A stretch of DNA of 64,000 bases, taken from NCBI GenBank assembly GCA_964016985.1, contig OZ024827.1:113385953-113449952 (forward strand). Direction: 5' to 3'. The stretch comes from Anodontia alba (lineage: Eukaryota; Mollusca; Bivalvia; Lucinida; Lucinidae). Shown in pieces: positions 10,182 to 64,000 of this stretch. Every line of letters begins with the position of its first letter. The first letter of the stretch is position 1. The notes beneath the pieces were generated by a model. That model saw only the letters and a program-made list of their open reading frames with translations, was not told the origin of the DNA and did no database searches. Both the position numbers and the translations under genes were made by a program.

Positions 10182-10380
10182 TGACATTCATACAGGATCT
10201 TGCATTCTCAAAATGATAGAGACACGTTTTCTTGGTGACAACGTAAGCGTTAAAAGTTTCAATAAAGCCAAAATTGAAAAATTTCAAGAAAAGTTATCTC
10301 ATATGGATCTCTCACGATATAAAAACATAATCCTGCATATCAGAGGACATGATATTGGCGCTTTAAAAAGACATCTGCTA
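10182..10380 (+). pseudogene. LINE ORF1 fragment (piece 4), SGNH-like C-terminal domain
   Basis: The frame reads DIHTGSCILKMIETRFLGDN ... MDLSRYKNIILHIRGHDIG. The pattern resembles the SGNH/esterase-like domain found in ORF1 of CR1-type LINEs (KNI-LHIGGHDI, with Arg in place of the usual Gly here). It completes the order PHD, coiled coil, linker, C-domain when the four Naiad tails are ignored. The frame runs on to 10725 but loses likeness after about 10380. Confidence 0.5.
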
Positions 10381-11597: not shown

Positions 11598-11738
11598 TCA
11601 ACTCTCGTTATCTCGAATTCCAAGGGACTCTATGAAATACTTCGAGATATCCGTACCTCGACATATCAGAGTTGCAGAGGAAAAAATAATTCGAACATCC
11701 ACATTTAACAAATACATAAGTAATTAGACTCTTGAAGT
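11594..11738 (+). mobile_element. Terminus of a pogo/Tigger-like DNA transposon, truncated
   Basis: Begins CAGTCAACTCTCGTTATCTC right after the AT run (a TA target is expected). The same end type bounds the element at 25976-26417. It is cut at about 11738 by Naiad copy 1. Confidence 0.55.
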
Positions 11739-13329
11739 TATCTTTTCGATATTTGAAACAAGGTATCCAAGAATTTCATAGGAAGTATGTTTTGGCTCCA
11801 GCTGATAAAGCTGCTAATAATGCTGTTGTTGTGTGACGACTTTATTATATCAATACTCTAAAACAAGAACTTGGTAGTACCAAAACATATGAACGGATTT
11901 CTACTAAAGAGAGATCTATTGTCAATACCCATTCTATCGATATTACTGCTAAGTTTGCAGTGAGTATTAAAGAAAAGCAAGACAGACTTCCTACGTTATA
12001 TTGGTTACCGAAACTTCATAAACGACCTTATTAGCACGTTTCATTGCTAATTCTAGTTCATGTACGACTACTGTTTTGTCCAAACTGCTAACTTCATGCC
12101 TTACTGCTGTTAAAAAACATTGGATTAGATACTATGATACTGTTTACGAAAGGGACGGAATTAACTATTTTTGGTCAATTAAAAATTCTAATGATGTTCT
12201 CAATAAATTTAAATCTAAAAACTTCCAGGCTTCTAAATTGTCTACATATGATTTTTCTACACTGTATACTACATTACCTCATCATCTTATAAAAGATAAA
12301 CTTATTGATTTAATTAACCGAACGTTAATTCGGGAGAATACCCAATATTTGGCTTGCAACGAAGAATGTGCTTTTTTCACTTCTGATGTATATAATAATC
12401 ACAATTTATGGTCGTGTCAAAAAGTCTGTGATGCCCTTGTTTATCTTTTGGATAATATTTTTATGAGATTGGGAACTAAACTTTATAGACAAACTATTGG
12501 TATTCCGATGGGAACTAATTGTGCTACTCTTGTTGCAGATTTGTTTCTTTTTTGTTATGAGAGAGATTTCATGAAGTCTCTCTCACGTGAAAATCAGGCT
12601 GACATTATTGAGGCTTTCAATTCAACTTCAAGATACCTTGACAATTTATTAAATATTGACAATATTTACTTTGACCAAATGGTGGACCGGATGTACCCTA
12701 CAGAACTCCAATTAAATAGAGCAAATTCTTCCGATACCGAGGCACCTTTTTGGATTTAAATCTATGTATATCTAATGGTACAGTTTCCACCAAAATTTAT
12801 GATAAACGGGACGATTTTGATTTTGATATAGTCAATTTCCCTTTTCTGGATGGCGATGTCCCCCGGCGTACCTCATATGGGGTATACATATCTCAACTTA
12901 TAAGATTCGCCAGAGCTTCTTCAAATCTTAATGACTTTAACTACCGTAATAAAGCCCTTTCTGCCAAACTTCTTAGGCAGGGCTATCGTTATTTTAAACT
13001 TCGTAAGGCGTTTTCGAAATTTTATCGCAGACACAGTGCCTTGTTAGAAAAATAGAGCGTCTGTCTGAAAACACTTCTGCAACAAGGTATATCGGAACCA
13101 GAATTTTACGGTGACTTAGTGTACAGATTTAGAAAGATTGTAGGCAAATCTAACTTTTCGGAGCAATTCAGAAAACTTATTAACCGTTATAAAAAATGAC
13201 TATAGCCTGGATATTATGCGGCAGACTGCATGCCTAGTTGTCAACCCAATCATTGTTGATGGCTATGCTTCACTCTTTAATTGCACGACGGCGGTTCGGG
13301 CCTCAGACTCAATGACGGCCTCTTCGTAA
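11739..13329 (+). pseudogene. Naiad PLE reverse transcriptase, copy 1, decayed, with one in-frame UGA
   Basis: 5'-truncated copy of the RT half of a Naiad-type Penelope-like element. Motifs seen: motif A region STYDFSTLYT, motif B GIPMGTNCATLVADLFLFCY, motif C region RYLDNLL, and the C-terminal block KLRKAFSKFYRRHS. The catalytic YLDD is YLDN here, so the enzyme is dead. Damage: a deletion near 12030 giving a stop, a one-base loss near 12750 shifting the frame, and a TAT-to-TAG-type stop near 13053. Apart from these, a UGA at 11834-11836 lies in the same place as the UGA at 48279 of the better copy, after a Val run and before RLYYINTLKQEL. This suggests selenocysteine, not decay, at that site. 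Confidence 0.85.
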
Positions 13330-13383
13330 AACTTTAACCAGAGGGTTGGGGCTTGACGATATGTCTTTGGCTAGGCCCGCCGT
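13288..13383 (+). promoter_or_regulatory. SECIS-like hairpin, Naiad copy 1
   Basis: Same layout as at 49737-49831. Outer stem 13288-13294 with 13377-13383 (ACGGCGG/CCGCCGT). ATGA at 13312-13315 faces TGA at 13354-13356. Helix GGCCTC (13317-13322) pairs with GGGGCT (13348-13353). An apical A run starts at 13328. It overlaps the RT stop codon. Confidence 0.6.
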
Positions 13384-13919
13384 GGTTTAAATACTGGCTT
13401 TCATTTACTCTGGCATACAGCAGAATTAGCCATGAGTACTCGTCTTTGTTTATTATAGTGATTAATTTGATTTTTATGTTTTCGCTTTGATGCATTGACT
13501 GAGTTGGGAGCCTTTATGCGAACCGAATTTTCATGTGTTTCTGTATTAGGAGTAGCATCGGGACCCAGGGTGAAGTTAGCTAGCTGTAAAAATGCTTTAA
13601 ACCCCCCGGTGGTTTACTCTACTGACCGTTCTAAAGCGGTGGTCCCGGTGTTAGTCTTACTCTTTGTTGCTTTGTGGTTTATTCTACGAGTCGATTTGTT
13701 GTGTGTCTTTCCGTGTGTCATTTTGTTCTTGTGTTTTTCAGTCCTTTTAGTATTGCGATTACCTCGCTTGGGGAAGAGAGAGCTAATCTTAGTGCTTTTC
13801 GCACGTTTGTTCGATTTGTGCTTGTTTGGATTTGTCAGTTTCCTCTTCCTCTTGGGGTCTGGGAAGGGCTGCGTTTTGTGATTGTGGCACTCCCTGGACT
13901 TTTCTCTTACCTTTTTTTT
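13330..13919 (+). mobile_element. Naiad 3' tail (T5) of copy 1
   Basis: Continuous with the RT of copy 1: GGGTTGGGGCTTGACG, CTGGCATACAGCAGAATTAG, GTAGCATCGGGACCCAGGG, terminus CTTTTCTCTTACC plus T. Contains a 128-codon sense frame (13495-13881) and an open antisense frame (13614-13976). Confidence 0.92.
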
Positions 13920-31873: not shown

Positions 31874-32369
31874 AGCTGGTCAGTTAATTTACATACACTT
31901 TTCCAAGACATGCTTATTCCCCTCCAAGTGGTTAACTAGTAAACAAGATTTTTTTACCAGTAATTGACAACTATAAATTATTTCATGATCTATCTCCACA
32001 GAAATTACGTGGCCGAGCTGGGATTCAATCTTTCGACCCCAGATACTGCATCCATCTACATTATGGAACCTGGCAGGTAGTATAAACTAGAATTCTGCCC
32101 AAGATGGCATTGCACCAGCCACCAGCTGACAGTATTCTACTAGAACTTAACACTACAAGTCATACAAAGAATGACCAAGTCATGGACTGTGAACTGTAGA
32201 TCATGGTCACAAATTAATGTCATGGTGTTGAGTCTCTGTTATCAGAGCAGTGTATTCCAGGTAGGATGATTGTAGATTATATGGTTAATCAGAAATGGAG
32301 CAAAATGCTAGAGTTGATGGTAAAATATAGATCAGGATCATAAAATGATGCAGTACTATCGTAATAAAA

Positions 32370-32632
32370 GGTAAGAGAAAAGTCCAGGGAGTTCCACAAT
32401 CACAAACCGCAGCCCTTCCCAGACCCCAAGAGGAAGAGGAAACCGACAAATCTAAACAAGCACAAACCGAACAAACGTACGAAAAGCACTAAGATTAGCT
32501 CTCCCTTCCCCAAGCGAGGTAATCGCAATACTAAAAGGACTGAAAACACAAGAACAACATGACACACAGAAAGACATACAACAAATCGCCTCGCAGAACA
32601 AACTACAAAGCAACAAAGAGTAAGACTAACAC
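32370..32632 (-). mobile_element. Solo Naiad 3' tail (copy T6)
   Basis: Starts GGTAAGAGAAAAGTCCAGGG next to an A run and breaks off after AGTAAGACTAACAC. 5'-truncated, no RT. Confidence 0.9.
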
Positions 32633-33960: not shown

Positions 33961-36900
33961 GATTTTTAAGTTTTTCCCATAATAAGTCTATGGAAGCTAA
34001 TGACTGGGGCGTGGCCAATTTGGACCCTAGGGACTTGATTGGCAGGATTTATGTAGAGGTTGGAACGGCACTAAATATTGCTACATACTAAATATATAAG
34101 CTGTGGGACTCTTGATTTCAGAGAAGAAGAGTTTTTTTTCCATTATAGTTCCATTGTAGCTAATGACCCCGGGGGCGTAGCCAATTTGGCCCCAGGGGCA
34201 TGGTTGGCAGGATTTATGTAGGAGACTACCAAACATTGCTACATACGAAATATGTTAGCCCTTGGCCTCATGGTTTCAGAGAAGAAGATTTTTGATGGTT
34301 CTTTAGGATGGGAGCTAATGACCCCCGGGGAGGGCCAGTTTGGACCCCAGGGGCACGGTTGGCAGGATTTATGTAGGAGACCACTGAACATCACTACATA
34401 TATAATATGTTATCTCTCGGCCTCATGGTTTTAGAGAAGAAGATATTTGAAGGTTCTTTAGCTATACAGATATATGACTCCCACCCCCCTGGGATGCGGC
34501 CAATTTGGAGCCCAGGGGCTTGATTAGCAGGATTTATGTAGGGGACCACTAAACATTGAGACATACTAAGCTATGGGCCTCACAGACGATTTTTTAGTTG
34601 TTTTTTTTCAGTATAAGTCTATGCCCCAGGGCATGACCAATTTAGACCCAAGGGGTATGGTTTGCAGGATTTATGTAGGAGACCACTGAACATCGCTATA
34701 TACTTAATCTGTTAGCTCTCGGCCTCATGGTTTCAGATAAGAAGATTTTTGAAGGTTCTTTAGCTATATAACTCTAAATAAACATATTTCTCCCTGTGGT
34801 GTAGCCAGTTTGGAGTCAAAGGGGCTTAACTGGCAGGGTGTATGTACAGGACCACCAAACATTGCTACATGTGAAAACAGAGTAGCTGTGGGACACATGG
34901 TTTCAGAGAAGAAGACTTTTTAAGTTATTTTCCATTATAAGTCTATGGGAGCTAATGACACCCCGTTGCGTGGCCAGTTTGGAGCCAAGGGGCTTGCTTA
35001 GCAGGATTTATGTACAGGACCACTTAACATTGCTACATACAAAATATAAAAGCTGTGGGCCTCATAGTTTCAGAAAAGAAGATTTTTTTTAAGTTTTTTT
35101 TTTTTGTTTTGTTTTTTCTTTCTTTTTTGTGTTTTCCATTATAAGTCTATGGGCGCTTATGACCCCAGGAGCATGGCCAGTTTGGACCCCAGGGACTTGA
35201 TCGGCAGGAATTATGTAGGGGACCACTAAACATTGCGACATACTAAATCTATAAGCTTTGGGCCTAATGGTTTCAGAGAAGAAGAGTTTTTAAGCTTTTC
35301 TCATTATAAGTCTATGGGAGATAATGACTCCCGGGGTGGAGCCAGTTTGAACCCCAGGGGCTTGATTGGCATGATTCATGTAGGAGACCACTCAACATCA
35401 ATACATCCTTAATCTGTTCGCTCTCGGCGTCATGGTTTCAGAGAAAGAGATTTTTGAAGATTCTTTAGATATACAGTTCTATAAAAACGTATGACCCCCC
35501 GTGGGGTGTGAACAGTTTGCAGCCCAGGGGCTTGATTGGCAGGAGTTATGTAGGGGGCCACTAAACATTGCTCCACACTAAATCTATAAGTTTCGGGACT
35601 CATGATTTCAAAGAAGATCTTTTTCCATGGGACATAATGACCCCATGGGCGTGGCCAATTTGGACCAGAGGCACGGTTGGCAGAATTTATGTAGGAGACC
35701 ACCAAACATTGCTACATATTAAATCTGTTAGCTCTTGGCTTCATGATTTCAGAGGTGAAGATTTTTTATCGTTCTTTAGCTATTGAGTTCTATAAAAAAA
35801 ATGACCCACTGGGTTGTGGATAGTTTGAATCCAAGTGGCATGATTGACAGGATTTAAATAGGGGACCACTAAACAGTTCTTCATACTAAATATATAAGCT
35901 GTGGGACTCATGGTTTCAGAGAAGAAGACTTTTTTAAGTTTTTTTCAATTATAAGTCTACTTGAGCTAATGTTGCCCGGGACGTGGCCAGTTTGGTCCCC
36001 AGGGGCTTGATTAGCAGGATTTATGTACAGGACCACTAAACATTGCTACATACAAAATATATAAGCTGTGGGCCTCATGGTTTCAGAGAAGGATTTGTTT
36101 TATTTTTTTTCCATTATAAGTTTATGGGAGCTAATGACCCCTGGAGCGTGGCCAGCTTGGACCCCAGAGTCTTGATTTGCAGGATTTATGTAAAAGACCA
36201 CTAAATATAGCTACATACATAATGTACTCGTATGAGTGCTTGTCGTCATGATTTCAGATAAGAAGATTTTTGAAGATTCTTTAGCTATATAGCTCTATAT
36301 AATCATACGACCCCCCCCTACCCCATACACACACATCCCCCCTGCGGTGTGGCCAGTTTGGAGCCCAGGGGCTTGATGGGCAGGATTTATGTAGCGGAAC
36401 CGCTAAACATTGCTACAAACTAAATATATAATCTGTTGGCCTCATGGTATCAGAGAAGAAGATTTTTTTTAAGTTATTCCCATTATAAGTACGGGAGCTA
36501 ATGACCCTGAGGGCATGGCCAGTTTAGCCCCCAGGGGCTTGATTGGCAGGATTTGATTTTGGTAGCGGACCACTAAACATTGCTACATACTAAATAATTA
36601 AGCTGTGGGCCTCATCTGTTTTTAGAAGAATATTTTTTTTTAAGTTTTTCCCATTATAAGTCTGTTGAAGCTAATGATCCCCAGGGCATGGCCAGTTGGG
36701 AGCCCAGGGGCTTGACTGACAGGATTTTTGTACGGGACCATAAAACATTGCTACATACTAAATATATCAGCTGTGCGCCTCATCGTTTCTGAAAAGATGT
36801 TTTCAAGTTTTCCCATTATAAGTCTATGGAAGCTAACGCCCACAAAGGCATGGCCAGTTTGGAGCCCAGGGACTTTATTGATGGGATTTATGTAGGGGAT

Positions 36901-37140
36901 TACAAAACATTGCTACATACTAAATATATAAGCTGTGGGTCTCATACTTTCGGGGAAGAAGATTGTTTTTAGTTTTTCCCATTATAAGTCTATGGGAGCT
37001 AATGAACCCCCGGAGCGTGGCCAGTTTAGGCCCCATGGGCTCGATTTGCACGATTTATGTAGGGGACCACTATACATTGCTATAAATAAAATATATAAGC
37101 TGTGGGCCTCATGGTTTCTGAGAAGAAGATTTTTGTAAGT
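33961..37140. repeat. Satellite-like array, ~166-bp units, about 19 copies
   Basis: The core CACTAAACATTGCTACATAC recurs about every 155-200 bp from 34078 to 37076. Each unit also has CCATTATAAGTCTATGGGAG, GCGTGGCCAGTTTGGA, GGCTTGATTGGCAGGATTTA and CTCATGGTTTCAGAGAAGAA. Units are 75-90% alike by eye. All ORFs here are chance frames. It ends in the module at 37141. Confidence 0.92.
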
Positions 37141-37388
37141 TTTCCCCAATGTGTCTGTGGGGGACATATATGGGCATGGCGGCCATCCTGATTAACGGAC
37201 TATGACCATTTGTACATATTTTCAATCCCCTATTAAAACAAGGCTCCACATGAAGTTTGAAGAATTTTGGCCCAGGGGTTTCAGTGGAGAAGTCCTTGAA
37301 AAGTGTGAACGGACGGACTGAGGGACGGACAGACGGACGGAGAGTGATCACAACAGCTCATCCTTTGGCTCAGGTGAGCTAAAAATAT
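37141..37388. mobile_element. Terminal module of the array-bearing element (GGTGAGCTAAAA end)
   Basis: GGGCATGGCGGCCATC, TCCACATGAAGTTTGAAGAA and tandem GGACGGAC units, then GTGATCACAACAGCTCATCC and CAGGTGAGCTAAAAA. The opposite terminus type (ATCGCTCACCTAAG) is seen at 62310. This suggests non-autonomous DNA elements that carry minisatellites inside. Confidence 0.6.
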
Positions 37389-38822: not shown

Positions 38823-39577
38823 AAAAGCCCTTACTGCCAAACTTCTTAGGCAGGGCTATCGTTATTACCTGGATATTATGCAGCAGACTGCATGCCTAGT
38901 TGTCAACCCAATCATTGTTGATGGCTATGCTTCACTTTTTAATTGCACGACGGCGGTTCGGGCCTCAGACTCAATGACGGCCTCCGTAAAACTTTAACCA
39001 GTGGGTTGGGGCTTGACGATATGTCTTTGGCTTGGCCCGCCGTGGTTCATCTATTGGTTTTCATTTACTCTGGCATACAGTAGAATTAGCCATGAGTACT
39101 CGTCTTTGTTTATTATAGTGATTAATTTGATTTTTATGTTTTTGCTTTGATGCATTGACTGAGTTGGGAGCCTTTATGCGAACCGAATTTTTATGTATTT
39201 CTGTATTAAGAGTAGCATCGGGACCCAGGGTGAAGTTAGCTAGCTGTAAAAGTGCTTTAAACCCCCCGGTGGTTTGCTCTACCGACCGTTCTAAGGCGGT
39301 GGTCCCGGTGTTAGTCTTACTCTTTGTTGCTTTGTGGTTTATTCTACGAGGCGATTTGTTGTATGTCTTTCCGTGTGTCATTTTGTTCTTGTGTTTTTCA
39401 GTCAGTTTAGTATTGCGATTACCTCGCTTGGGGAAGAGAGAGCTAATCTTAGTGCTTTTCGTGCATTTGTTCGGTTTGTGCTTGTTTAGATTTGTCGGTT
39501 TCCTCTTCCTCTTAAGGTCTGGGATGGGCTGCGGTTTGTGATTGTGGCACTCCCTGGACTTTTCTCTTACCTTTTTG
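38823..39577 (+). mobile_element. Naiad RT C-terminal fragment with SECIS-like hairpin and full tail (T9)
   Basis: Short RT remnant (ALTAKLLRQGYRYYLDIMQQ, with an internal deletion), hairpin at 38950-39043, then the complete tail to TTTTCTCTTACC. The tail has the 128-codon sense frame (39155-39541) and an open antisense frame (39381-39061). Confidence 0.88.
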
Positions 39578-40580
39578 TAAGGAGTTTTCGAAATTTTATC
39601 GCAGGCACAGTGCCTTGGTAAAACAATAATGTCAGTCCGAAAACACTTCTGCGACGAAGGTATATCCGGAACCAGAATTTTACGGTGACTTAGTGTACAG
39701 ATTTAGAAAAATTGTGGGAAAATCTAACTTTTCGGAGCAATTCAGAAAACTTATTGACCGTTATAAAAGAATTGGCTGTAGCCTGGATATTATGCGGCAG
39801 ACACTGCATGCCTAGTTATCAGCCCAGTCATTGTTGATAGCTATGTATTACTCTTCAATTGCACGACGGCGTTTCGGGCCTCAGACCCAATGACGGGCTC
39901 TTATTAAAACTTTAACCAGTAGGTTTGGGCTTGATGATGTATTTTTGGCTTAGCCCGCCGTGGTTCAACTATTTGTTTTCATTCACTCTGGCATACAGCA
40001 GAATTAGCCATGAGTACTCGTCTTTGTTTTATCATAGTGATTAATTTGATTTTTATGTTTTCGCTTTGATGCATTGACTGTGTTGGGAACCTTTATGCGA
40101 ACCGAATTTTTATGTGTTTCTATAATGAGAGTATAATCGGGACCCAGGATAAAGTTGGTTAGCTGTAAAAGTGCTTCAACCCCCTCCCACCCCACTCCCC
40201 GGTAGTTTATTCTACTGAACGTTATTGATTGATTGATTGTTTTGAGGTTTAACGACACGTCAACCCTTGAGGGTCATTTTGTGTCGTCTCCCAGAGAAAG
40301 GGAGAAAAGAGATAGAAGAGAGAGTAGAGGAGATGAAAGAGAGGGACAGGGAAGAAAGAGGAACAGGAATGAAAGTGAAGAAACAGAAGAAATAAAAACA
40401 TTCCCCCTCTACCCTTACCCACTACAAGGATAGCAGGCCTTGCCCAACTGTAAGCCAATATCAGTTGGACGCCCCTGTGATGTAAGATACACAGCACCTT
40501 CGCACCACCCGACCACCCCCAAACTGAACGTTATAAGTCGGTGGTCCTGGTGTTGTTCTTTTACTCTTTGTAGTTTTGTA
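39578..40580 (+). mobile_element. Second Naiad RT C-terminal fragment and tail (T10), split by a SINE-like insertion
   Basis: Starts AGTTTTCGAAATTTTATCGC inside the RT, runs through a degenerate SECIS-like hairpin (39866-39961) and into the tail, then is interrupted at 40226-40522 and resumes ACTGAACGTTATAAGTCGG up to about 40580. More diverged than its neighbours. Confidence 0.85.
40226..40522 (-). mobile_element. SINE/LINE-like retrosequence with 12-bp target duplication
   Basis: Perfect ACTGAACGTTAT repeats flank it (40214-40225 and 40523-40534). The minus strand ends GACGTGTCGTTAAACCTCAA and (AATC)n, a microsatellite-type 3' end. The rest is a G+A-rich or C-rich body without a recognisable tRNA head. 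Inserted into the Naiad tail T10. Confidence 0.85.
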
Positions 40581-40730
40581 GTTCCCACATTGCTTTCTGT
40601 TTTTTCTGTGGCCACCGTCTTCAATGACGTTGCTTTCTGTTTTACTAGTGTGTTGTGATGCTAGCATTTTGGTCACCTTCAACAGCTGCCCCGTTTGCTA
40701 TCTGTTTTACAAGTGGTGATTAAGAGAAGC
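40581..40730. other. Unassigned spacer between Naiad tails
   Basis: Two TGCTTTCTGTTTT pieces, otherwise unlike the tail. May be a strongly diverged tail portion. Confidence 0.4.
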
Positions 40731-41086
40731 ATCGGGACCCAGGGTGAAGTTGGCTGGCTGTAAAAGTGCTCTTAACCCCTCGGCAGTTTATTCTACTGAC
40801 CGTTCTAACTAAGGCGGTAGTCCCGTCTTACTCTTTGTTGCTTTGTGGTTCATTCTGCGGGCGATTTGTTTTAAGTCTTGCCTTGTGTTATTTTGTTCTT
40901 GTGTTTTTAGTTCTTTTAGCATTGTGAGCTCCTTGCTTGGGGAAGAGAGAGCTTATCTTAGTGCTCTAAATACGTTTGTTCGATTTGCGCTTGTTTGGTT
41001 TGTTTGTTTCCTCTTCCTCTTGGTGTCTGGGAAGGCTTGTCATTGTGCAACTCCCTGGACTTTTCTCTTTGCTTTTTTGCTAAGAG
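40731..41086 (+). mobile_element. Solo Naiad tail (T11), diverged
   Basis: GCATCGGGACCCAGGGTGAA to CCCTGGACTTTTCTCTTTGC plus T, with many substitutions. Confidence 0.88.
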
Positions 41087-41237
41087 TGGTGCTGCTCCTT
41101 CCCCTCAATGATCCATGACAGAAGCAGCTGGATCCGCCACAAGATTATCCCGTTCTGCAGTTTGTTCTCTCTGACCTGTATCGACACGCTTCGTTTCCGT
41201 ATGGTCCTTTGTGCTTATTGCCGATGGTTCAGAAAAG

Positions 41238-42566
41238 GTAAGAGAAAAGTCCAGGGAGTGCCAAAATCACAAACCGCAGCCCTTCCCAGACCCCAAGAGG
41301 AAGAGGAAACCGACAAATCTAAACAAGCACAAACCAAACAAACGTACGAAAAGCACTAAGATTAGCTCACTATTCCCCAAGCGAGGTAATCGCAATAGTA
41401 AAAGGACTGAAAAACACAAGAACAAAATGACACACGGAAAGACATACAACAAATCGCCTCGTAGAATAACCCACAAAGCAACAAAGAGTAAGACTAACAC
41501 CGGGACCACCGCCTTAGAACGGTCGGTAGAGCAAACCACCGGGGGGTTTAAAGCACTTTTACAGCTAGCTTACTTCACCCTGGGTCCCGATGCTACTCTT
41601 AATACAGAAATACATAAAAATTCCGTTCGCATAAAGGCTCCCAACTCAGTCAATGCATCAAAGCGAAAACAAAAAATCAAATTAATCACTATAATGAACA
41701 AAGACGAGTACTCATGGCTAATTCTACTGTATGCCAGAGTAAATGAAAACCAATAGTTGAACCACGGCGGGCCAAGCCAAAGACGTATCGTCAAGCCCCA
41801 ACCCACTGGTTAAAGTTTACGAAGAGGCCGTCATTGAGTCTGAGACCCGAACCGCCGTCGTGCAATTAAAAAGTGAAGCATAGCCATCAACATATTGATT
41901 GGGTTGACAACTAGGCATGCAGTCTGCCGCATAATATCCAGGCTATAGCCAATTCTTTTATAACGGTTAATAAGTTTTCAGAATTGCTCCGAAAAGTTAG
42001 ATTTACCTACAATTTTTCTAAATCTGTACACTAAGTCACCGTAAAATTCGGATTCCGATACACCTTGTTGCAGAAGTGTTTTCAGACTGACGCTATATTT
42101 TTCCAACAAGGCACTGTGTCTGCGATAAAATTTCGAAAACGCCTTACGAAGTTTAAAATAACGATAGCCCTGCCTAAGAAGTTTGGCAGTAAGGGCTTTA
42201 TTACGGTAGTTAAAGTCATTAAGATTTGAAGAAGCTCTGGCGAATCTTATAAGTTGAGATATGTATACCCCATATGAGGTACGCCGGGGGACATCGCCAT
42301 CCAGAAAAAGGAAATTGACTAAATCAAAATCAAAATCGTCCCGTTTATCATAAATTTTGGTGGAAACTGTACCATTAGATATACATAGATTCAAATCCAA
42401 AAAAGGTGCCTCGGTATCGGAAGAATTTGCTCTATTTAATTGGAGTTCTGTAGGGTATATCCGGTCCACCATTTGGTCAAAGTAAATATTGTCAATATTT
42501 AATAAATCGTCAAGGTATCTTGAAGTTGAATTGAAAGCCTCAATAATGTCAGCCTGATTTTCACGT
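41238..42566 (-). mobile_element. Naiad copy 2: RT C-terminal half, SECIS-like hairpin and tail
   Basis: Tail on the minus strand from 41765 down to GGTAAGAGAAAAGTCCAGGG at about 41238. SECIS-like hairpin at 41764-41858. RT frame 42472-41978 (NSSDTEAPFLDLNLCISNGT, SYGVYISQLIRFARASSNLN, KAFSKFYRRHS) open but 5'-truncated at about 42566, just above the YLDD block. At 42566 it joins the BEL gag sequence. Confidence 0.9.
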
Positions 42567-44717: not shown

Positions 44718-45673
44718 ATGAGTATCACTAACAGATTAAAAATTACTATTTCTCCTATTAGGCTACATTCTACTTCTTCTTTACAGATTCCCCGTTCTAC
44801 TGCTAGATTTAACTCTCTGTTACCTACTGTTAACGTTTCACCTTTGAAACTTCACTCTGTATCATCTATAAATTTATATGGCGCTTCCAATTATAATATT
44901 TTCAGTAATCACCTTAGAATTAGACTTTCTCCAATTAAATCTCCTATACTTCTAAAATATAAGAATCCGTATAAAAGGAACAGTATGTACCCTAATATTT
45001 CTAAGTGCAATGCCAAGAGTTGCACCTGCTGCAATCATTTAATTTGTCGGTCAACTATAATTTCCTCAGTTAATCATAGACAATTTTCAGTTGTAAACAA
45101 CTCTAATTTAGACTGAAAATCAGATGATGTTATATATGTTCTCACTTGCAGCTAAGGGGGCTGAGGAATGCAGTATGTTTGACAGACCAAACGGGCCCTT
45201 AAAATAAGGTTTTAGGAACATTTGCTTAAAACCAAAAAAGCAAAGAAAATTGATACGTTTCTTTATCAACATTTCCGGAGTATTGGTCATTCATGATCAT
45301 CTAGTAAAGTGTTGGTTCAACCTGTTGAAAAAATTATACACAAGTCCAATTCTACCGAAAGATTCAAAAATATTTTTAGACATGAACTTGAATTTAAATG
45401 GATTAAACGTTTACAAACCCCTTTTCCACTTGGATTTAATGATAATATTTACCATGAAGGAAATATTTCTAAAATGCCGGATTTCGACGCTTTTTCCCTT
45501 TTAGATATTAAAAAACGTAATAAACGATCCCATGGGAAGCGCAAAAATGGCAATTTTAAACGAAAACATAAAACTGTTTTATCTCTTTTTGATTTAAATA
45601 TTCTCTTAAATTCTGGACGTCATCAAATGCTTTCTAAACTAGCTTCACTGTCTGTGTCTTCATTACGTAAAAG
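44718..45673 (+). pseudogene. Naiad copy 4, N-terminal half with GIY-YIG endonuclease, several in-frame stops
   Basis: The first ATG that opens the frame is at 44718. A basic leader is followed by a Cys cluster (CNAKSCTCCNHLICRSTI). Then comes the GIY-YIG core (DDVIYVLTCS ... MQYV-QTKRALKIRF-EH), with a His further on (LYQHFRSIGHS). It ends with KIIHKSNSTERF and LDIKKRNKRSHGKRKNGNFK. The endonuclease would nick the target for priming. An N-terminal GIY-YIG is the mark of the Naiad/Chlamys group; canonical PLEs have it C-terminal. In-frame stops: UGA at 45114, 45162, 45180 and 45294; UAA at 45153; UAG at 45213. The UGA at 45114 falls where a Cys normally precedes VIYxLxC, so selenocysteine is plausible. 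The UAA/UAG show decay. Confidence 0.8.
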
Positions 45674-46200
45674 GTAAGAGAAAAGTCCAGGGAGTGCCAT
45701 AATTACAAACCGCAGCCCTTCTCAGACCCCAAGAAGAAGAGGAAACCGACAAATCTAAACAAGCACAAACCAAACAAACGTACGAAAAGCACTAAGATTA
45801 GCTCTCTCTTCCCCAAGCGAGGTAATCGCAATACTAAAATGACTGAAAAACACAAGAACAACATGACACACGGAAAGACATACAACAAATCGCCTCGCAG
45901 AACAAACTACAAAGCAACAAAGAGTAAGACTAACACCGGTACCACCGCCTTAGAACGGTCGGTAGAGCAAACCACCGGGGGATTTAAAGCACTTTTACAG
46001 CTAGCCAACTTCACCCTGGGTCCCGATGCTACTCTTAATACAGAAATACATAAAAATTCAGTTCGCATAAAGGCTCACAACTCAGTCAATGCATCAAAGC
46101 GAAAACATAAAAATCAAATTAATCACTATAATAAACAAAGACGAGTACTCATGGCTAATTCTACTGTATGCCAGAGTAAATGAAAACCAATAGTTGAACC

Positions 46201-46295
46201 ACGGCGGGCCAAGCCAAAGACATATCGTCAAGCCCCAACCCACTGGTTAAAGTTTACGAAGAGGCCGTCATTGAGTCTGAGGCCCGAACCGCCGT
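46201..46295 (-). promoter_or_regulatory. SECIS-like hairpin, Naiad copy 3
   Basis: Inverted copy of the structure at 49737-49831: outer stem 46295-46289 with 46207-46201, and the same quartet and inner helix. Confidence 0.6.
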
Positions 46296-47510
46296 CGTGC
46301 AATTAAAGAGTGAAGCATAGCCATCAACAATGATTGGGTTGACAACTAGACATGCAGTCTGCCGCATAATATCCAGGCTATAGCCAATTCTTTTATAACG
46401 GTTAATACGTTTTCTGAATTGCTCCGAAAAGTTAGATTTACCTACAATTTTTCTAAATCTGTACACTAAGTCACCGTAAAATTCGAGTTCCGATATACCT
46501 TGTTGCAGAAGTGTTTTCAGACTGACGCTATATTTTTGTAACAAGGCACTATGTCTGAGATAAAATTTCGAAAACGCCTTACGAAGTTTAAAATAACGAT
46601 AGCACTGCCTAAGAAGTTTGGCAGTAACGGCGTTATTACGGTAGTTAAAGTCATTAAGATTTGAAGAAGCTCTGGCGAATCTTATAAGTTGAGATATGTA
46701 TACCCCATATGAGGTACGCCGAGGGACATCGCCATCCAGAAAAAGGAAATTGACTAAATCAAAATCAAAATCGTCCCGTTTATCATAAATTTTGGTGGAA
46801 ACTGTACCATTAGATATACATAGATTCAAATCCAAAAAAGGTGCCTCGGTATCGGAAGAATTTGCTCTATTTAATTGGAGTTCTGTAGGGTATATCCGGT
46901 CCACCATTTGGTCAAAGTAAATATTGTCAATATTTAATAAATCGTCAAGGTATCTTGAAGTTGAATTGAAAGCCTCAATAATGTCAGCCTGATTTTCACG
47001 CGAGAGAGACTTCATGAAATCTCTCTCATAACAAAAAAGAAACAAATCTGCAACAAGAGTAGCACAATTAGTTCCCATCGGAATACCAATAGTTTGTCTA
47101 TAATGTTTAGTTCCAAATCTAATAAAAATATTATCCAAAAGATAAACAAGGACATCACAGACTTTTTGACACGACCATAAATTGTGATTATCATATACAT
47201 CAGAAGTGAAAAAAGCACATTCTTCGTTGCAATCCAAATATTGGGTATTCTCCCGAATAAACGTTCGGTTAATTAAATCCATAAGTTTATCTTTTATAAG
47301 TTGATGAGGTAACGTAGTATACAGTGTAGAAAAATCATATGTAGACAATTTAGAAGCCTGAAAGTTTTTAGATTTAAATTTATTGAGAACATCATTAGAA
47401 TTTTTTATTGACCAAAAATAATTAATTCCGTCCCTTTCGTAAACAGTATCATAGTATCTAATCCAATGTTTTTTAACAGCAGTAAGGCATAAAGTTACCA
47501 GTTTGGACAA
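46254..47510 (-). CDS. Naiad RT (copy 3), 418-codon open frame, 5'-truncated
   Basis: Reverse transcriptase of the PLE/telomerase-related lineage. Motif A STYDFSTLYTTLP, motif B GIPMGTNCATLV, motif C SRYLDDLLNID with both Asp kept, then LDLNLCISNGTV, the KRDDFDFDLVNF block and the C-terminal KLRKAFSKFY. No stop in 418 codons, which suggests recent activity of the family. The endonuclease, the CxC motif and the region with the UGA are missing, so it is not a complete protein. Confidence 0.88.
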   Translation of the reverse strand: MSKLVTLCLTAVKKHWIRYYDTVYERDGINYFWSIKNSNDVLNKFKSKNFQASKLSTYDFSTLYTTLPHQLIKDKLMDLINRTFIRENTQYLDCNEECAFFTSDVYDNHNLWSCQKVCDVLVYLLDNIFIRFGTKHYRQTIGIPMGTNCATLVADLFLFCYERDFMKSLSRENQADIIEAFNSTSRYLDDLLNIDNIYFDQMVDRIYPTELQLNRANSSDTEAPFLDLNLCISNGTVSTKIYDKRDDFDFDLVNFLFLDGDVPRRTSYGVYISQLIRFARASSNLNDFNYRNNAVTAKLLRQCYRYFKLRKAFSKFYLRHSALLQKYSVSLKTLLQQGISELEFYGDLVYRFRKIVGKSNFSEQFRKRINRYKRIGYSLDIMRQTACLVVNPIIVDGYASLFNCTTAVRASDSMTASS

Positions 47511-47515
47511 AACAG

Positions 47516-49778
47516 TAAGTTAGATGATGAGTCGAATAAATTTTATGATAGAAAACATGATTTGTATGAAGCAGCTCTCCTTACTAGATTTTATATTCAA
47601 CATGCTCTTCGTCCTTACATTGATTCTGAAATTAACCATATTAGACACTTCATCAAAATTCCATTCATTAATAAAGGTATTGAATTCATAGATTTACCTA
47701 GCATATTTCGAGATAATAATGTTATATCAGCTATACCTTCATATTTCGAAAACACGGAATCTCCTATTATTTGTTATAAATATAACAAACCTATCCGTAA
47801 TACTATACTTAATTTCAATAAATTAGTTTCTGATCTTGATATTGAAACTAGTTCCCCTGATTCTTGAGATTGTTAAGATTCTAAATTTTGTTATCAACCA
47901 GCGGGTCATATTGTCACTGGTAACTTGAAGATTATAACTGATTCACGAATCCGTTCAGTTATTTCAAAAGGACCTAAATATAGATTCCCAGCCCACATTG
48001 ATTTCAATAAATGTCGGGAAACAATTGCCAGTGCTTTAAATGATTATTGTACGCGTTGGTGTAAACGAGAGCATGTTGAGTCTAATACTTTAAATAATTG
48101 GAAATTAAAGATTTTTAAGATCATTGATGAACGTGTGTTATTTTACTCTAATAACCTTGATCTTCTCCCTCCTAAGCCTAAATTATCTTTTCGATATTTG
48201 AAACAAGGTATCCAAGAATTTCATAGGAAGTATGTTTTGGCTCCAGCTGATAAAGCTGCTAATAATGTTGTTGTTGTGTGACGACTTTATTATATCAATA
48301 CTCTAAAACAAGAACTTGGTAGTACCAAAACATATGAACGGATTTCTACTAACGAGAGATCTATTGTCAATACACATTCTATCGATATTACTGCTAAGTT
48401 TGTAGTGAGTATTAAAGAAAAGCAAGACAGACTTCCTACGTTATATTGGTTACCGAAACTTCATAAACGACCTTATAAAGCACGTTTCATTGCTAATTCT
48501 AGTTCTTGTACGACTACTGTTTTGTCCAAACTGCTAACTTTATGCCTTACTGCAGTTAAAAAACATTGGATTAGATACTATGATACTGTTTACGAAAGGG
48601 ACGGAATTAACTATTTTTGGTCAATAAAAAATTCTAATGATGTTCTCAATAAATTTAAATCTAAAAACTTTCAGGCTTCTAAATTGTCTACATATGATTT
48701 TTCTACACTGTATACTATGTTACCTCATCAACTTATAAAAGATAAACTTATGGATTTAATTAACCGAACGTTTATTCGGGAGAATACCCAATATTTGGCT
48801 TGCAACGAAGAATGTGCTTTTTTCACTTCTGATGTATATGATAATCACAATTTATTGTCGTGTCAAAAAGTCTGTGATGCCCTTGTTTATCTTTTGGATA
48901 ATATTTTTATTAGATTTGGAACTAAACTTTATAGACAAACTATTGGTATTCCGATGGGAACTAATTGTGCTACTCTTGTTGCAGATTTGTTTCTTTTTTG
49001 TTATGAGAGAGATTTCATGAAGTCTCTCTCGCGTGAAAATCAGGCTGACATTATTGAGGCTTTCAATTCAACTTCAAGATACCTTGACGATTTATTAAAT
49101 ATTGACAATATTTACTTTGACCAAATGGTGGACCGGATATACCCTACAGAACTCCAATTAAATAGAGCAAATTCTTCCGATACCGAGGCACCTTTTTTGT
49201 ATTTGAATCTATGTATATCTAATGGTACAGTTTCCACCAAAATTTATGATAAACGGGACGATTTTGATTTTGATGTAGTCAATTTCCTTTTTCTGGATGG
49301 CGATGTCCCTCGGCGTACCTCATATGGGGTATACATATCTCAACTTATAAGATTCGCCAGAGCTTCTTCAAATCTTAATGACTTTAACTACCGTAATAAC
49401 GCCCTTACTGCCAAACTTCTTAGGCAGTGCTATCGTTATTTTAAACTTCGTAAGGCGTTTTCGAAATTTTATCTCAGACATAGTGCCTTGTTACAAAAAT
49501 ATAGCGTCAGTCTGAAAACACTTCTGCAACAAGGTATATCGGAACTCGAATTTTACGGTGACTTAGTGTACAGATTTAGAAAAATTGTAGGTAAATCTAA
49601 CTTTTCGGAGCAATTCAGAAAACGTATTAACCGTTATAAAAGAATTGGCTATAGCCTGGATATTATGCGGCAGACTGCATGCCTAGTTGTCAACCCAATC
49701 ATTGTTGATGGCTATGCTTCACTCTTTAATTGCACGACGGCGGTTCGGGCCTCAGACTCAATGACGGCCTCTTCGTAA
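47516..49778 (+). CDS. Naiad copy 4, CxC linker and reverse transcriptase, with in-frame UGA codons
   Basis: Continuous in one frame from 47520 to the UAA at 49776-49778, apart from UGA 47865, UAA 47874 and UGA 48279. Order: YIDSEINHIRHFIKIPFINK and IICYKYNKPI; the linker DS-U-DC, where the first Cys of the CxC motif is UGA; CYQPAGHIVTG; YVLAPADKAANN plus VVVV, UGA, RLYYINTLKQEL; then the RT with TYDFSTLYTMLP, GIPMGTNCATLVADLFLFCY, SRYLDDLLNID and KRDDFDFDVVNF. From 48405 the frame is open for 457 codons. In related proteins the two UGA sites are normally Cys, as I recall them. The UAA at 47874 is a real break, so this copy is probably dead but young. With the endonuclease half at 44718 it would make about 1,070 residues, normal for the family. 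Confidence 0.88.
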
Positions 49779-49831
49779 ACTTTAACCAGTGGGTTGGGGC
49801 TTGACGATACGTCTTTGGCTTGGCCCGCCGT
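49737..49831 (+). promoter_or_regulatory. SECIS-like hairpin overlapping the Naiad stop codon
   Basis: Outer stem ACGGCGG (49737-49743) with CCGCCGT (49825-49831). Quartet ATGA (49761-49764) against TGA (49802-49804). Next to the quartet, helix GGCCTC (49766-49771) pairs with GGGGCT (49796-49801) with two G-U pairs. Apical loop with AA at 49777-49778, 12 nt after the ATGA. Spacing fits eukaryotic SECIS elements, which recruit the selenocysteine machinery to UGA. The UAA stop (49776-49778) lies in the structure. Five other Naiad copies keep this region. Confidence 0.65.
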
Positions 49832-50356
49832 TGTTCAACTATTGGTTTTCATTTACTCTGGCATACAGTAGAATTAGCCATGAGTACTCGTCTTTGTTTA
49901 TTATAGTGATTAATTTGATTTTTATGTTTTCGCTTTGATGCATTGACTGAGTTGGGAGCCTTTATGCGAACTGAATTTTTATGTATTTCTGTATTAAGAG
50001 TAGCATCGGGACCCAGGGTGAAGTTAGCTAGCTGTAAAAGTGCTTTAAACCCCCCGGTGGTTTGCTCTACCGACCGTTCTAAGGCGGTGGTCCCGGTGTT
50101 AGTCTTACTCTTTGTTGCTTTGTGGTTTATTCTACGAGGCGATTTGTTGTATGTCTTTCCGTGTGTCGTTTTGTTCTTGTGTTTTTCAGTCATTTTAGTA
50201 TTGCGATTACCTCGCTTGGGGAATAGTGAGCTAATCTTAGTGCTTTTCGTACGTTTGCTCGGTTTGTGCTTGTTTAGATTTGTCTGTTTCCTCTTGGGGT
50301 CTGGGAAGGGCTGCGGTTTGTGATTGTGGCACTCCCTGGACTTTTCTCTTACCTTT
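49779..50356 (+). mobile_element. Naiad 3' tail (T14) of copy 4
   Basis: Reference tail for the window: CTGGCATACAGTAGAATTAG, GTAGCATCGGGACCCAGGG, AGCTAGCTGTAAAAGTGC, GGCGGTGGTCCCGGTGTTAG, CCTCGCTTGGGGAATAG, CACTCCCTGGACTTTTCTC and a terminal TTACC plus T run. Confidence 0.92.
49943..50323 (+). CDS. Putative small hydrophobic ORF in the Naiad tail (126 codons)
   Basis: Starts MTELGAFMRTEF and becomes strongly hydrophobic (VVPVLVLLFVALWFILRG, LILVLFVRLLGLCLFRFV), with two or three potential membrane segments. The same start and frame are open in T5 (13495-13881, 128 codons) and T9 (39155-39541, 128 codons). The codon complement of the antisense Lys/Asn/Thr-rich frame (50415-49849, 188 codons) explains part of the composition. 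Could be a real accessory protein or a chance frame in a young repeat. No family known to me. Confidence 0.3.
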   Translation: MTELGAFMRTEFLCISVLRVASGPRVKLASCKSALNPPVVCSTDRSKAVVPVLVLLFVALWFILRGDLLYVFPCVVLFLCFSVILVLRLPRLGNSELILVLFVRLLGLCLFRFVCFLLGSGKGCGL

Positions 50357-50364
50357 TTTACTGC

Positions 50365-50830
50365 GTTTCCAACACCTTTTTCTTGTTGGTTTCCGAAGTT
50401 TATTTTTTTTTTCATGCATATCGATCGTTAGAATATCTGATCTTTCATCTTGACAAGATTGAAGATATTCATTGGCTGCTTCGTATGCTGGACGGTATTC
50501 GTCGCCTAGCTTTTCCATTTCGTTTGACACCCGCATGCTTTTCTGCATCTCGTCAATTTTGTTGTAAAATTCAGAAACTTCGTTAGAACGTCCATGACCA
50601 ATTCCGAGCACGAGTCCATTTTCCGACAGGCATTCTTAACCTCCCTGCGGCTGGGAAGCTCATGTTGCTCAAGTAACGAGAGCAGTTGATTCCTTAAACG
50701 ACTTAGCCTTATTTAGCTCGAGCTTTGTCCTTCTTACATTCCGCTTCCAATCTTGTAACAGCGACTGCTGCACTCCGACTGTCCTTATTTTCCAATGACG
50801 CCATTCTGAATTTTATCCGATTTTCTGTTG
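50365..50830 (-). pseudogene. Probable BEL/Pao gag N-terminus, decayed
   Basis: The minus strand opens with MASLENKDSRSAA near 50805, then in shifted frames LEQHELPSRREVKNACRKMD and EFYNKIDEMQKSMRVSNEME, LGDEYRPAYEAANEYLQS: charged, helical, coiled-coil-like, as at the start of BEL gag proteins. It lies just outside the Naiad tail and on the same strand as the BEL gag remainder at 44.3-42.6 kb. A host gene exon is the alternative. Confidence 0.45.
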
Positions 50831-51300: not shown

Positions 51301-52531
51301 CTGGGCACTTTGTCTAGTTTTTGTTATAGTTCGTCTTTGAATGTGTGTGTGTCGCTTACTTTTTGTTTTGGATAGCCATTTGGCCACTTTGTGGGAAAGT
51401 AACTGTCCGTTTGGCTTTCTGCTAGTGATGTTTCCATTAGTGTCGTTATTTCTTGTTTGTGTTTCTTTCCCTTTGATGTCTCTGATGGGAGGTGTGGGAT
51501 AATTGTATCGATTCCTGATCATTACCTTCCTTTCTATTTTGCTTTCTGGTGTTTTTCTTTTTGCAACAGCGTATGTTTGAGAGATGTTCGATTAAGTTTG
51601 GATGATAGAGAAGCCACCTTTCTGGGAAAAAGTTGCCAGCTCTACTTGCCGTCTGTGCATTATGTGGCTGCTTCATTGTGTTTGCCTGCCTTTCCCTTTG
51701 GTGTTAATGGTTCTATGTGAATCTTATTCTGTCTGTTCCTGAGTTCACTTATTTACTTTATCTAGTTGACACCACTACCCAGCAAGCCATATTTAACCCA
51801 TGTATGCATTGTGTCCCATAATCTGTACATTGTCAGTGTAGACCCAGATCAGATGCTGCAGGAATGGGACAAGAATTGCTATGAAGCATTTTAACAATAA
51901 AAACTAACCAGACATGGCAAACGAACCGATCCATACAGTTAATGTAGAGGAGTTCACCTAGCATAATTATTGCGTCAAGTTTTACAATATTTGTAATATC
52001 GATTGAAAGCGCAATTAACAGAAACAAACACTATAATTACAATTACTGCTGAATCTTTCCGAGCCGTCGAAACTGTGATCTATACATGTAGTAGTGTTGG
52101 TGAAATGAACTGACATCAACATCCGCAAAATGATACACATATAATACATGCCAACCGTCTTTTGGCAATCAACGAATCGTTCATTAAGCGAAATGTTCAC
52201 TTGTTCGAAAACTATAGCAAACTTTCCATTCAGCTGACAGTTTTCGGCGGACGGTAGCGAATACCGCAAACTATTCTCAAGCTGACTTTTAGCACAACCA
52301 AAATGGCGGCATTCGCGAATATTTTTTTTGTTTGTTCGTCACAAAAAAATATATGGGATGTCTACTGGGTTGACATTATACATTTAGTACTACTCGCATA
52401 TAAAATTAATAATCGGTGATATAATTTATTAGATCTAACATCAGGTCTCGTCAAAGGGAATACTGTCTGCTGTCTAATTTGAGTTCGATTTATTTGTAGC
52501 CCGTGATAATTCAGGGATAAGTTAGAAAAAA
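51301..52531. other. No gene recognised
   Basis: 51830-51990 carries a fragment of the TAGACCCAGATCAGA palindromic repeat. An AAAATGGCGGCATTCGCG at 52300 resembles a translation start but opens only 38 codons. 51340-51720 resembles 53030-53230 (for example CAGCTCTACTTGC / CAGCTCTGCTTGC with GTCTGTTCAT-like context), probably a shared diverged repeat. Confidence 0.4.
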
Positions 52532-52890
52532 AGGTAAGAGAAAAAGTCCAGGGAGTGTCATAATCACAAACCGCAGCCCTTCGCAAACATCAAGAGGAAG
52601 AGGAAACCGACAAATCCAAACAGGCACAAATCGATCAAACGTACGAAAAGCACTAAGATTAGCTCTCTCTTCCCCAAGCGAGGTAATCGCAATGCTAAAA
52701 GGACTGAAAAACACAAGAACAAAATGACACAAGGTAAGACATACAACAAATCGCCTCGCAGAATAAACCACAAAGCACCAAAGAGTAAGACTAACACCGG
52801 GACCACCGCCTTAGAACGGTCAGCAGAGTAAACCACCGGGGGATTTAAAGCACTTTTACAGCTAGCCAACTTCTCCCTAGGTCCCGGTAA
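52532..52890 (-). mobile_element. Solo Naiad 3' tail (T15)
   Basis: AAAAAAGGTAAGAGAAAAAG at the left, tail to CCAACTTCTCCCTAGGTCCC at the right. No RT. Confidence 0.92.
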
Positions 52891-55902: not shown

Positions 55903-56833
55903 AATATTCAAGGAATGTATACAGAGAGAAACAGGTCTCTTCCATATTTATATGTTGGGGTTCGGTGCTTATACATTTTCATATTTAGTTTGACTTTTAA
56001 ATGAAAGTTAATTTAAAAAAAAAATCAAATTTAAGTCAAACATTAAAATTAATTTAAATTCCTGAAATTATTTTACTAAAATTATATATACATTCTGTGA
56101 TGATCTTTGAGAATGTAATTTTTAACAAATGTATTTATTTTGGTAAGTTTTTTTTCCAACACAAAGACCTGTATCTTGCATTTTTATTATTTATTTATTT
56201 ATTTATATTTATTTAATTTTTTTTTTAATTTAAATATATCAGTTTTCATCATTTTTTTAAAAAAAAAAAATCTGGCTTGACAAAGTCTTACAATTCAAAA
56301 GTAATAGAATACTTATTATTTTTATCAAAATTAACAGTCTGGAATAAAATGACTGGGATTTAAATAAATTTAAATTTCCAAGTAAAATCTAAAAGAACCA
56401 ATAACATAATACAATAGAGTATTGTGGGATAGCTTTTTCAGGAAGTATAAATAGCAGTACAAGTTACTATGACTTTGAATGCATGTAGCCTCTGAACCTT
56501 CAGGAATTTCCAAATAGGGTTTTCAGCACCATTGACATTTTACCAATATCTTTTGTTTGAAATATTCTGACATTAGGGAATGCGTCATCTCTTAGCTCAC
56601 GGCTGTTTTTATTTGTTTCAAGACACAATAAATATATACCTTTAAAATAAAATGGACATAATGAATCCTCCAATGTGTGGAATAACAAATGGAAAATGGC
56701 CAAAACTGTGTACATTTTAAACGCTCTAGATTATATTTTCAATTATAAATTCTACACGAAAAAAACATATTGTTGGTACTTATTTGAAGGTCATTGATAG
56801 GGCAATATTAATGAATACCCACAACTTACGTAG
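55903..56833. other. No gene recognised, very AT-rich
   Basis: Contains A and T runs and TTTA repeats near 56195. A single arm of the AAACATATTGTTGGTAC foldback motif lies near 56764, with its inverse (TACCCACAAC) near 56816. Confidence 0.45.
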
Positions 56834-57123
56834 TCCCGGTGTTAGTCTTACTCTTTGTTGCTTTGTGGTTTATTCTGCGAGGCGATTTGTATTGTTTGTT
56901 TGTTTTTTTTTTTTTTTTTTTTTTTTTTTTGTTGTTTTTTGTGTGTGTATATTTTCAGTCCTTTAAGCATTGCACTTACCTCGCTTGGGGAAGAGAGAGC
57001 TAATCTTAGTGTTTTTCGTACGTTTGTTCGATTTGCGCTTGTTTGTTTTTTGTTTCCTCTTCCTCTTGGTGTCTGGGAAGGGCTGTGATTGTGGCACTCC
57101 ATGGACTTTTCTTTTACATTTTT
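56834..57123 (+). mobile_element. Solo Naiad tail (T16), with poly-T expansion
   Basis: GTCCCGGTGTTAGTCTTACT to ATGGACTTTTCTTTTACATT, interrupted by a T run at 56900-56930. 5'-truncated. Confidence 0.88.
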
Positions 57124-62285: not shown

Positions 62286-64000
62286 AACACAAGAGGACCA
62301 TGTAGATCCTACATCGCTCACCTAAGCAGACTTGCATACTACTATTTAAGTCTCAGCCAAGTTCACTGCTCTAAGAACTTTGCATAAATTTTATAGCCCT
62401 GCCACCTAGCGACCAGTTTCTTAAATGCATCATGACGGCGGTAACCAAAGGAACATTTCTGCCAAGTTATATTGAAATCACTCCAGTGGTTTCTGACGAA
62501 AAGATTTTTAAAGTGAACTCCCGGTGGTTTACTCTACTGACCGTTCTAAGCCGGTGGTCCCGGTGCTAGTCTTACTTTTTGCTTTGTGTTTATTCTACGA
62601 GGCGATTTGTGTTATGTCTTACCTTGTGTCATTTTGTTCTTGTGTTTTTCAGTCCTTTTAGCATTGCGATTACCTTGCTTGGGGAAGAGAGAGCTAATCT
62701 TAGTGCTTTTCGTACGTCTGTTCGATTTGTGCTTGTTTGGATTTGTCGGTTTCCTCTTCCTCTTGGTGTCTGGGAAGGGCTGCAGTTTGTGATTGTGGCA
62801 CGCCCTGGACTTTTCTCTTACCCTTTTTTTAAATAGCTATATAAGGAAAAGAAGCCCTGCACCAAAGCGGCCATTTCTGACGAATCATAACCGCTTGAAC
62901 AAATTTGGTAGAGGATCAACAAAAGGAACATTCCTGCCAAGTTATATTGAAATCTATTCAGTGGTTTCATAGAAGAAGGTTTTTAACGTTTTCTATTTAG
63001 ATATATAGGAAAAACCACGGCCCCCTGGCAGCCATGTATTTTGACCTGTCATGAGGGTTTGGACAATCTTGGAAGGTCATCAAAGCAACATTCCTGCCAA
63101 GTTACACTGAATTCTGTCCAGAGGCTTCTGACAATAAGAATTTTAAAGTTTTCTATATAGATATACAAGAAAAATAAGCTCCGCCCCCTGGCAGCCATGT
63201 TTTTTGACGAATCATGACGGCTTGAACAATCCTGGTAGAAGGTCACCAAAGAATTATTCCTGCCAAGTTATATTAAAATCAGTGTATTGGTTAATGACGA
63301 GAAAATTTTGAAAATTTTCTATATAGATATACAGGCAAAATAAGCTCCGCCACCAAGCGGCCATGTTTTTGACGCATCATGACGGCTTGATTAATCTTGG
63401 TAGAGGGTAACCGAAGAAACATTTCTGCCAAGTTTTATATAAGCACTCCACCCCGCCACCCCTACCCCTACCAAAAAAAGGCATGTCTTTTGACGATCAT
63501 GACCTCTTGAAACTGAGAGGGTCACCAAAGAAACCATCCAGTTATATTGAAATTGGCCAATTGGTTTATGACGAGAACATTTTCAAAGCTTTCTATATAG
63601 ATATACAGGGTTAACAAGTTCCGCCCCCTAGCGGCCATTTTTTATCGTATCATGACGGCTTGAACAATCTTGGTAGAGGGTCACCAAAGAAACAATTCAG
63701 CCAAGTTATATTGAATTGGTCCAGTGGTTTCTGACAAGTTTTTTTAAATTTTCTATATAGACATACAAGGAAAACAAGCCCTGCCCCACTTTGAATCGGT
63801 TCAACGGTTTCTTTCGAGAAGACATTTAAAGTTTTCTATACAGATAGATAGGGAAAATACGCCCCAACCCATAGCAGCCATGCTTCTTGACGAATCATGA
63901 CGACTTGAACAACCTTGGTAGAGGGTCATCAAAGAAACATTTCTACCAAGTTACACTGAAACCTGTGCATTGGTTTCTGACAAGTAGATATTTTTTTAAA
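62284..64000. repeat. Array-bearing element with ~160-bp units, runs off the window
   Basis: Opens with ACAAGAGGACCATGTAGATC and CTACATCGCTCACCTAAG, the usual start of such bivalve elements. Units (AATCATGACGGCTTGAACAA, AAGTTATATTGAAATC, TTTCTATATAGATATACAGG, CCCCTGGCAGCCATG) recur near 62425, 62880, 63050, 63212, 63375, 63495, 63650 and 63893. A Naiad tail is inserted at 62519-62830. Confidence 0.85.
62519..62830 (+). mobile_element. Solo Naiad tail (T17) inside the array
   Basis: TCCCGGTGGTTTACTCTACT to GCCCTGGACTTTTCTCTTAC plus T. No RT. It lies between two array units. Confidence 0.92.

Follow-up and report, generated by a model that had tools for sequence, protein, structure and literature searches.

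The window, by which we mean the whole 64-kb stretch of clam DNA analysed here, holds dead and truncated copies of a Naiad-type Penelope-like element. Sequence comparisons and RNA models make it very likely that the source of these copies is a predicted selenoprotein element with a SECIS lying across the end of its open reading frame (ORF). In the modelled structure the 5′ arm of the SECIS is formed by the last codons, the apical AA lies in the UAA stop and the 3′ arm lies in the UTR.

Dispersed copies of a Naiad-type element

Self-BLAST identified a single retroelement family, Naiad-type and Penelope-like, dispersed through the window as six longer copies and shorter pieces of the 3′ end (Table 1). 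The pieces consisting of the 3′ end only were clustered within the 64 kb (8567–10182, 32363–32632, 40719–41078, 52524–52886, 56830–57123 and 62516–62832), some of them in opposite orientation. At 34006–37148 lay a satellite-like array whose period is near 165 bases, and a minus-strand open frame of 132 codons, rich in Lys and Arg and without a Pfam match, spanned the 3′ end of the element at 50237–50635. Copies B and A formed a near-perfect inverted repeat (45669–47517 versus 48515–50357, 98 % over 1849 columns) with a head-to-head junction at 47516/47517, where copy A starts. Head-to-head arrangement is frequent among Penelope-like elements.

The reading frame of copy A corresponds to a Naiad-type protein minus its N-terminus. 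Some genomic copies shared a further 1.2–1.4 kb upstream, encoding a GIY-YIG endonuclease, and PF01541 (GIY-YIG) was detected upstream of the reverse transcriptase (RT) frame in the longer genomic copy L021 (E 1.3e-5). PF01541 was also listed for 11 of the 27 homologues found with the endonuclease part, and scanning of homologue P0122 detected both GIY-YIG and RVT_1. The clam pieces alone gave no Pfam RT match, and the RT was therefore assigned by homology. The CxC linker between endonuclease and RT reads U-D-C in the clam family and C-x-C in homologues. Classification as a Naiad-type Penelope-like element is supported at the sequence level, and the name Naiad is applied on the order of the domains and the CxC linker. 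Likeness to the Naiad clade extends to the N-terminal GIY-YIG domain, the CxC linker, the RT, inverted and tandem copies and predicted selenocysteine (Sec), which clam Naiads reportedly contain. No PDB sequence matched P0001, and viral contigs searched for the DNA of relatives contained no confirmed relative. Genome contigs searched for relatives gave two loci, L009 (40 % match) and L010 (a 48-residue fragment), neither of which was useful for the SECIS.

Copy A is a dead copy, as it is without the endonuclease and has an in-frame UAA at a codon that is AAA or AAT in other copies (Table 1); any statement on function therefore concerns the source element. A sequence-only reading of the same DNA had described the frame as otherwise coding, which does not hold, as the private UAA stands three codons past the first UGA, and a functional element at this locus is not supported. 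All copies examined bear damage. Copy 1, which that reading had used as independent evidence, is 96 % identical to copy A and hence a sister copy.

Table 1. Positions of element copies, in-frame codons and the SECIS hairpin in the window
Feature	Position	Strand	Evidence
Copy 1; UGA at 11834–11836, SECIS match at 13304–13367 (20.9 bits)	11735–13917	+	Self-BLAST, Rfam
Copy D; hairpin at 38944–39047, frame shifted past the stop	38868–39576	+	Self-BLAST, own covariance model
Copy E; 88 % identical, hairpin at 39860–39965	39574–40223	+	Self-BLAST, own covariance model
Copy C; SECIS match at 41780–41842 (20.3 bits)	41233–42566	−	Self-BLAST, Rfam
Copy B; inverted relative to A, SECIS at 46197–46301	45669–47517	−	Self-BLAST, own covariance model alone
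Copy A; 5′-truncated Naiad-type element, head to head with copy B	47516–50359	+	Self-BLAST, genomic copies
UGA, predicted Sec site 4, first Cys of CxC (PDS-U-DC)	47865–47867	+	TGA in 18/18 other copies covering the site
UAA private to copy A, breaks the frame	47874–47876	+	AAA in 18/19 and AAT in 1/19 other copies
UGA, predicted Sec site 5, RT part (NNVVVV-U-RLYY)	48279–48281	+	TGA in 27/28 other copies, the exception being an indel
Whole hairpin (basal stems, core, helix II, apical loop)	49737–49831	+	MFE fold z −3.52, pair counts
SECIS core region, Rfam RF00031	49753–49815	+	20.3 bits, model positions 1–64 of 64, cut-off 35
UAA stop, its AA being the apical AA of the modelled SECIS	49776–49778	+	Sequence, Rfam match, motif-anchored places
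3′ UTR without another listed SECIS_1 match	49779–50359	+	Rfam scan

Recurrent in-frame UGA codons and their counterparts in homologues

The two in-frame UGAs that the sequence-only reading had noted in copy A, and the one in copy 1, were all present. For comparison across copies, the genome (1.86 Gb, 317 contigs) was searched with 48600–49200, giving at least 40 matches, with 40 of 456 candidates scored. Three of the 40 listed matches lay inside the window and the other 37 were retrieved. Projection onto copy A used alignments with at least 92 % identity over at least 300 columns, weaker ones being left out. Among 753 codons, none besides 47865 and 48279 had TGA in more than two copies. Alignment of 16 copies to L021 revealed three further recurrent UGAs upstream, within the GIY-YIG endonuclease (sites 1 to 3). 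At offsets from 47516, TGA was found in 6/6 copies at −554, in 5/6 at −506 (TCA in the remaining one) and in 9/9 at −374 (TGHS-U; including L021, L016, L032, L015, L020 and L035). In the family frame, comprising GIY-YIG, CxC linker and RT, in-frame UGAs recurred at five sites, and no stop other than these was recurrent. Random decay as the source of the UGAs was rejected on the copy counts (18/18 and 27/28; upstream 6/6, 5/6 and 9/9).

In 11 further loci (L049–L059), where sites were located by motif search, UGA was present at site 1 in 1/1, site 2 in 6/6, site 3 in 7/7, site 4 in 8/8 and site 5 in 10/11, the eleventh having UGA one codon later. As the copies of family I, to which copy A belongs, share descent, these counts reflect fixation in the source element and not independent origin. 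Diverged copies add to the evidence: one copy of family II (68–71 % DNA identity to copy A) had UGA at sites 4 and 5, and one copy of family III (72–75 %) had UGA at site 5.

Residues at the five sites were read from 26 aligned homologues, of which 23 belonged to the 27 found with the endonuclease part and three came from a wider protein search. Among homologues with a residue at the position, Cys was found at site 1 in 15/16 and at site 2 in 17/17, with Trp in the remainder; site 4 had Cys in 20/23 and Trp in three, and site 5 had Cys in 22/26 and Trp in four. Site 3 (offset −374) had Cys in 0/19 homologues, and the UGA there is possibly a gained Sec. The expectation that relatives would carry Cys at the UGA sites was thus borne out at sites 1, 2, 4 and 5 and failed at site 3. 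The sequence-only reading had also named a pattern that would count against recoding, random stops with Cys in most copies; the opposite was seen, with UGAs fixed in the copies and Cys carried by the relatives. In a wider list (120 of 894 homologues), site 5 was readable in 38 proteins, with Cys in 25, Trp in 12 and Arg in one. The Trp residues in database translations probably come from gene prediction reading TGA as Trp. Protein P0121 (596 aa) had Trp at sites 1, 4 and 5, while P0042 and P0046 had Trp at site 5 only and Cys at site 4; these are perhaps further Sec-encoding Naiads with a different distribution of Sec.

Ordinary near-cognate readthrough of the UGAs, inserting Trp, Arg or Cys and not Sec, is very unlikely. 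The Trp found in database translations would fit it, subject to the probable prediction artefact, but relatives have Cys at four of the sites, a candidate SECIS lies on the same transcript, and five leaky stops in succession would leave very little product.

The predicted SECIS hairpin in copy A and its relatives

The hairpin of copy A has AUGA at 49761–49764 and UGA at 49802–49804 in its core, helix II at 49766–49774/49793–49801 and the apical AA at 49777–49778, within the stop codon. The hairpin drawn in the sequence-only reading was recovered, with the AUGA/UGA quartet, the apical AA and an outer stem of 7 bp; helix II has 7/9 pairs, with two U-U. The best fold of copy A was the SECIS fold (MFE −44.2 kcal/mol; Table 1). 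Likeness to the eukaryotic SECIS (RF00031) comprises the AUGA/UGA core, helix II, the apical AA 12 nt past the quartet and a match over the full length of the model. The SECIS search that had been proposed gave a full-length SECIS_1 match that scored below the cut-off (E 1.6 over 4227 families, or approximately 4e-4 for SECIS_1 alone by division). Within the 3-kb stretch no other SECIS_1 match was listed, and a scan of the whole 64-kb window with Rfam at the curated cut-off gave no SECIS match. A second SECIS was looked for in the 580-nt 3′ UTR, and none was listed by Rfam at E up to 10. A geometric SECIS pattern, drawn up after the hairpin had been seen, turned up in 0.06 % of cases when the 200 nt surrounding the stop were shuffled 5000 times and in 10 % when the entire element was shuffled 500 times; two unrelated places in the window contained it as well.

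Six family I copies had SECIS_1 scores of 20.1–21.8 bits (A, 20.3; copy 1, 20.9; C, 20.3; L050 and L025, 21.8; L049, 20.1). With 37.9 bits (E 8.7e-6 over 4227 families), the family III copy L062 exceeded the cut-off of 35. The register AUGA-N12-AA is common to families I and III, and in L062 the AA is again that of the UAA stop. The proposal that the SECIS contains the terminator was thereby upheld, with the UAA contributing the apical AA in a register that recurs in a copy above the Rfam cut-off. No Rfam SECIS match was listed for copies D and E in a loose-threshold scan, or for the family II copies L011 and L061. Folding gave z −4.73 for L062; the best fold of copy 1 was a different one (z −2.30), and the family II copies L061 and L011 folded no better than shuffles (z −0.25 and −0.28). 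In 47 family I hairpins, AUGA with the preceding A was kept in 44 and the 3′ CUUGA in 40. Our own covariance model, R1, matched the hairpin in all six window copies and in 48/48 loci tested; the model was built from such copies, and its minus-strand matches mirror the stem. One R1 match, at L042:1358–1460 (19 bits), looks by eye like a decayed fourth relative with a TGA stop.

Compensatory change was assessed in ten sequences from the three families. In the proposed structure 85.9 % of cells pair, compared with 33–51 % when the partners are slid, and in five pairs both partners had changed, among them A-U replaced by C-G in the outer stem and C-G replaced by U-A in both helices. Of 500 shuffles, 2 reached the covariation score and 1 the number of doubly changed cells, but 77 reached the number of doubly changed pairs. 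All ten sequences are related, and they were in view when the structure was drawn, so that covariation is support and not proof.

These data bear on two further alternatives. It is exceedingly improbable that the UGAs are ordinary pseudogene decay and the hairpin a chance one. The damage in every copy examined, the private UAA and the family I scores under the Rfam cut-off are what such decay might leave, but decay would not fix one stop in 18/18 and 27/28 copies, nor place stops at Cys positions, and L062 exceeds the cut-off. It is also improbable that the UGAs are recoded while the hairpin serves mainly as an RNA signal for the element's own RT and not as a SECIS. Penelope-like RT does use a structured template RNA; in an anole element, reverse transcription begins within an AC-rich stem loop, and the RNA that is required takes in the ORF start (PMC11167929). 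However, the clam hairpin has the core, the spacing and the model match of a SECIS, and the two homologues of Cys type that reach this C-terminus, P0031 and P0104, are without the tail that encodes the 5′ arm (n=2).

Placement of the stop codon and its possible consequences

At motif-anchored places of the window and the retrieved loci, the codon at a distance of 15 from the anchoring Cys was TAA in 54/65, TAG in one and TGA in one, and nine places stop elsewhere. A recognisable tail was present in 81 of 120 homologues listed from 894, and 65/81 had the 15-residue form, mostly DSMMAPT, DSMMVPT or DSMTASS. This spacing would yield the AUGA-N12-AA register in homologues, provided that their stop is UAA. 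In family II a UAG within the 5′ arm, ten codons earlier, is the first in-frame stop (3/3 copies), which indicates that the stop need not occupy the apical AA. Among the listed proteins, three terminate in -SD, and several more terminate earlier or later. Proteins P0041 (representing 1743 members), P0044 and P0045 end in ..GR(I/A)(S/L)D and are thereby six residues shorter at this end than usual; their stop would lie just ahead of the SECIS core. Among the 120 listed homologues, 13 of the 25 proteins with Cys at site 5 end in an SDSMM-type tail, and the tail therefore needs no Sec at site 5. A possible history is that the ORF extended into a SECIS and that the stop then settled in the apical AA.

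In the source element, the SECIS would recruit the Sec machinery, and the UGAs of the endonuclease-RT would then be decoded as selenocysteine. With a ribosome positioned on the UAA, the 5′ quartet 12 nt upstream would be covered, so each finishing ribosome would have to open the hairpin briefly, and the SECIS would serve the upstream UGAs only between terminating ribosomes. The overlap would probably reduce efficiency without blocking recoding. By analogy, the fowlpox glutathione peroxidase 4 SECIS lies within the coding sequence and is still functional (Mix et al. 2007, via PMC8310308), which suggests that opening of the hairpin by ribosomes is tolerable. Both SECIS overlap coding sequence and are crossed by ribosomes, but the fowlpox one belongs to a viral gene and lies in its coding sequence (PMC8310308), whereas the predicted clam one spans the stop codon that ends a retrotransposon ORF. 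A stronger proposal is that the UAA is a working part of the SECIS, that each finished translation briefly disables it and that selection has kept the overlap as a control in clam Naiads. We regard this as doubtful; if it were true, each element copy would have a built-in limit on its endonuclease-RT output.

Craig and colleagues, writing in Mol Biol Evol in 2021, reportedly described selenoprotein Naiads in clams and spiders. Naiads that encode Sec were accordingly known already, and the new point, as far as could be seen, is the position of the SECIS. Eukaryotic SECIS normally lie downstream of the stop, while in the clam element the stop is inside the predicted SECIS. Human thioredoxin reductases, for example, have the SECIS approximately 225 nt from the stop (PMC3737529). 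A SECIS overlapping a stop codon was not named in the available portions of the literature searched on Naiads, Penelope-like elements, selenoproteins and SECIS. The candidate Sec codon at site 3, where Cys never occurs in the relatives examined, would represent a gain of Sec and not an exchange between Cys and Sec. A natural, multi-copy eukaryotic SECIS that holds its own stop would make it testable whether translation next to or through a SECIS impairs it, and families I and III, with the stop in the apical AA, and family II, with the stop further upstream, may serve as ready-made natural reporter variants.
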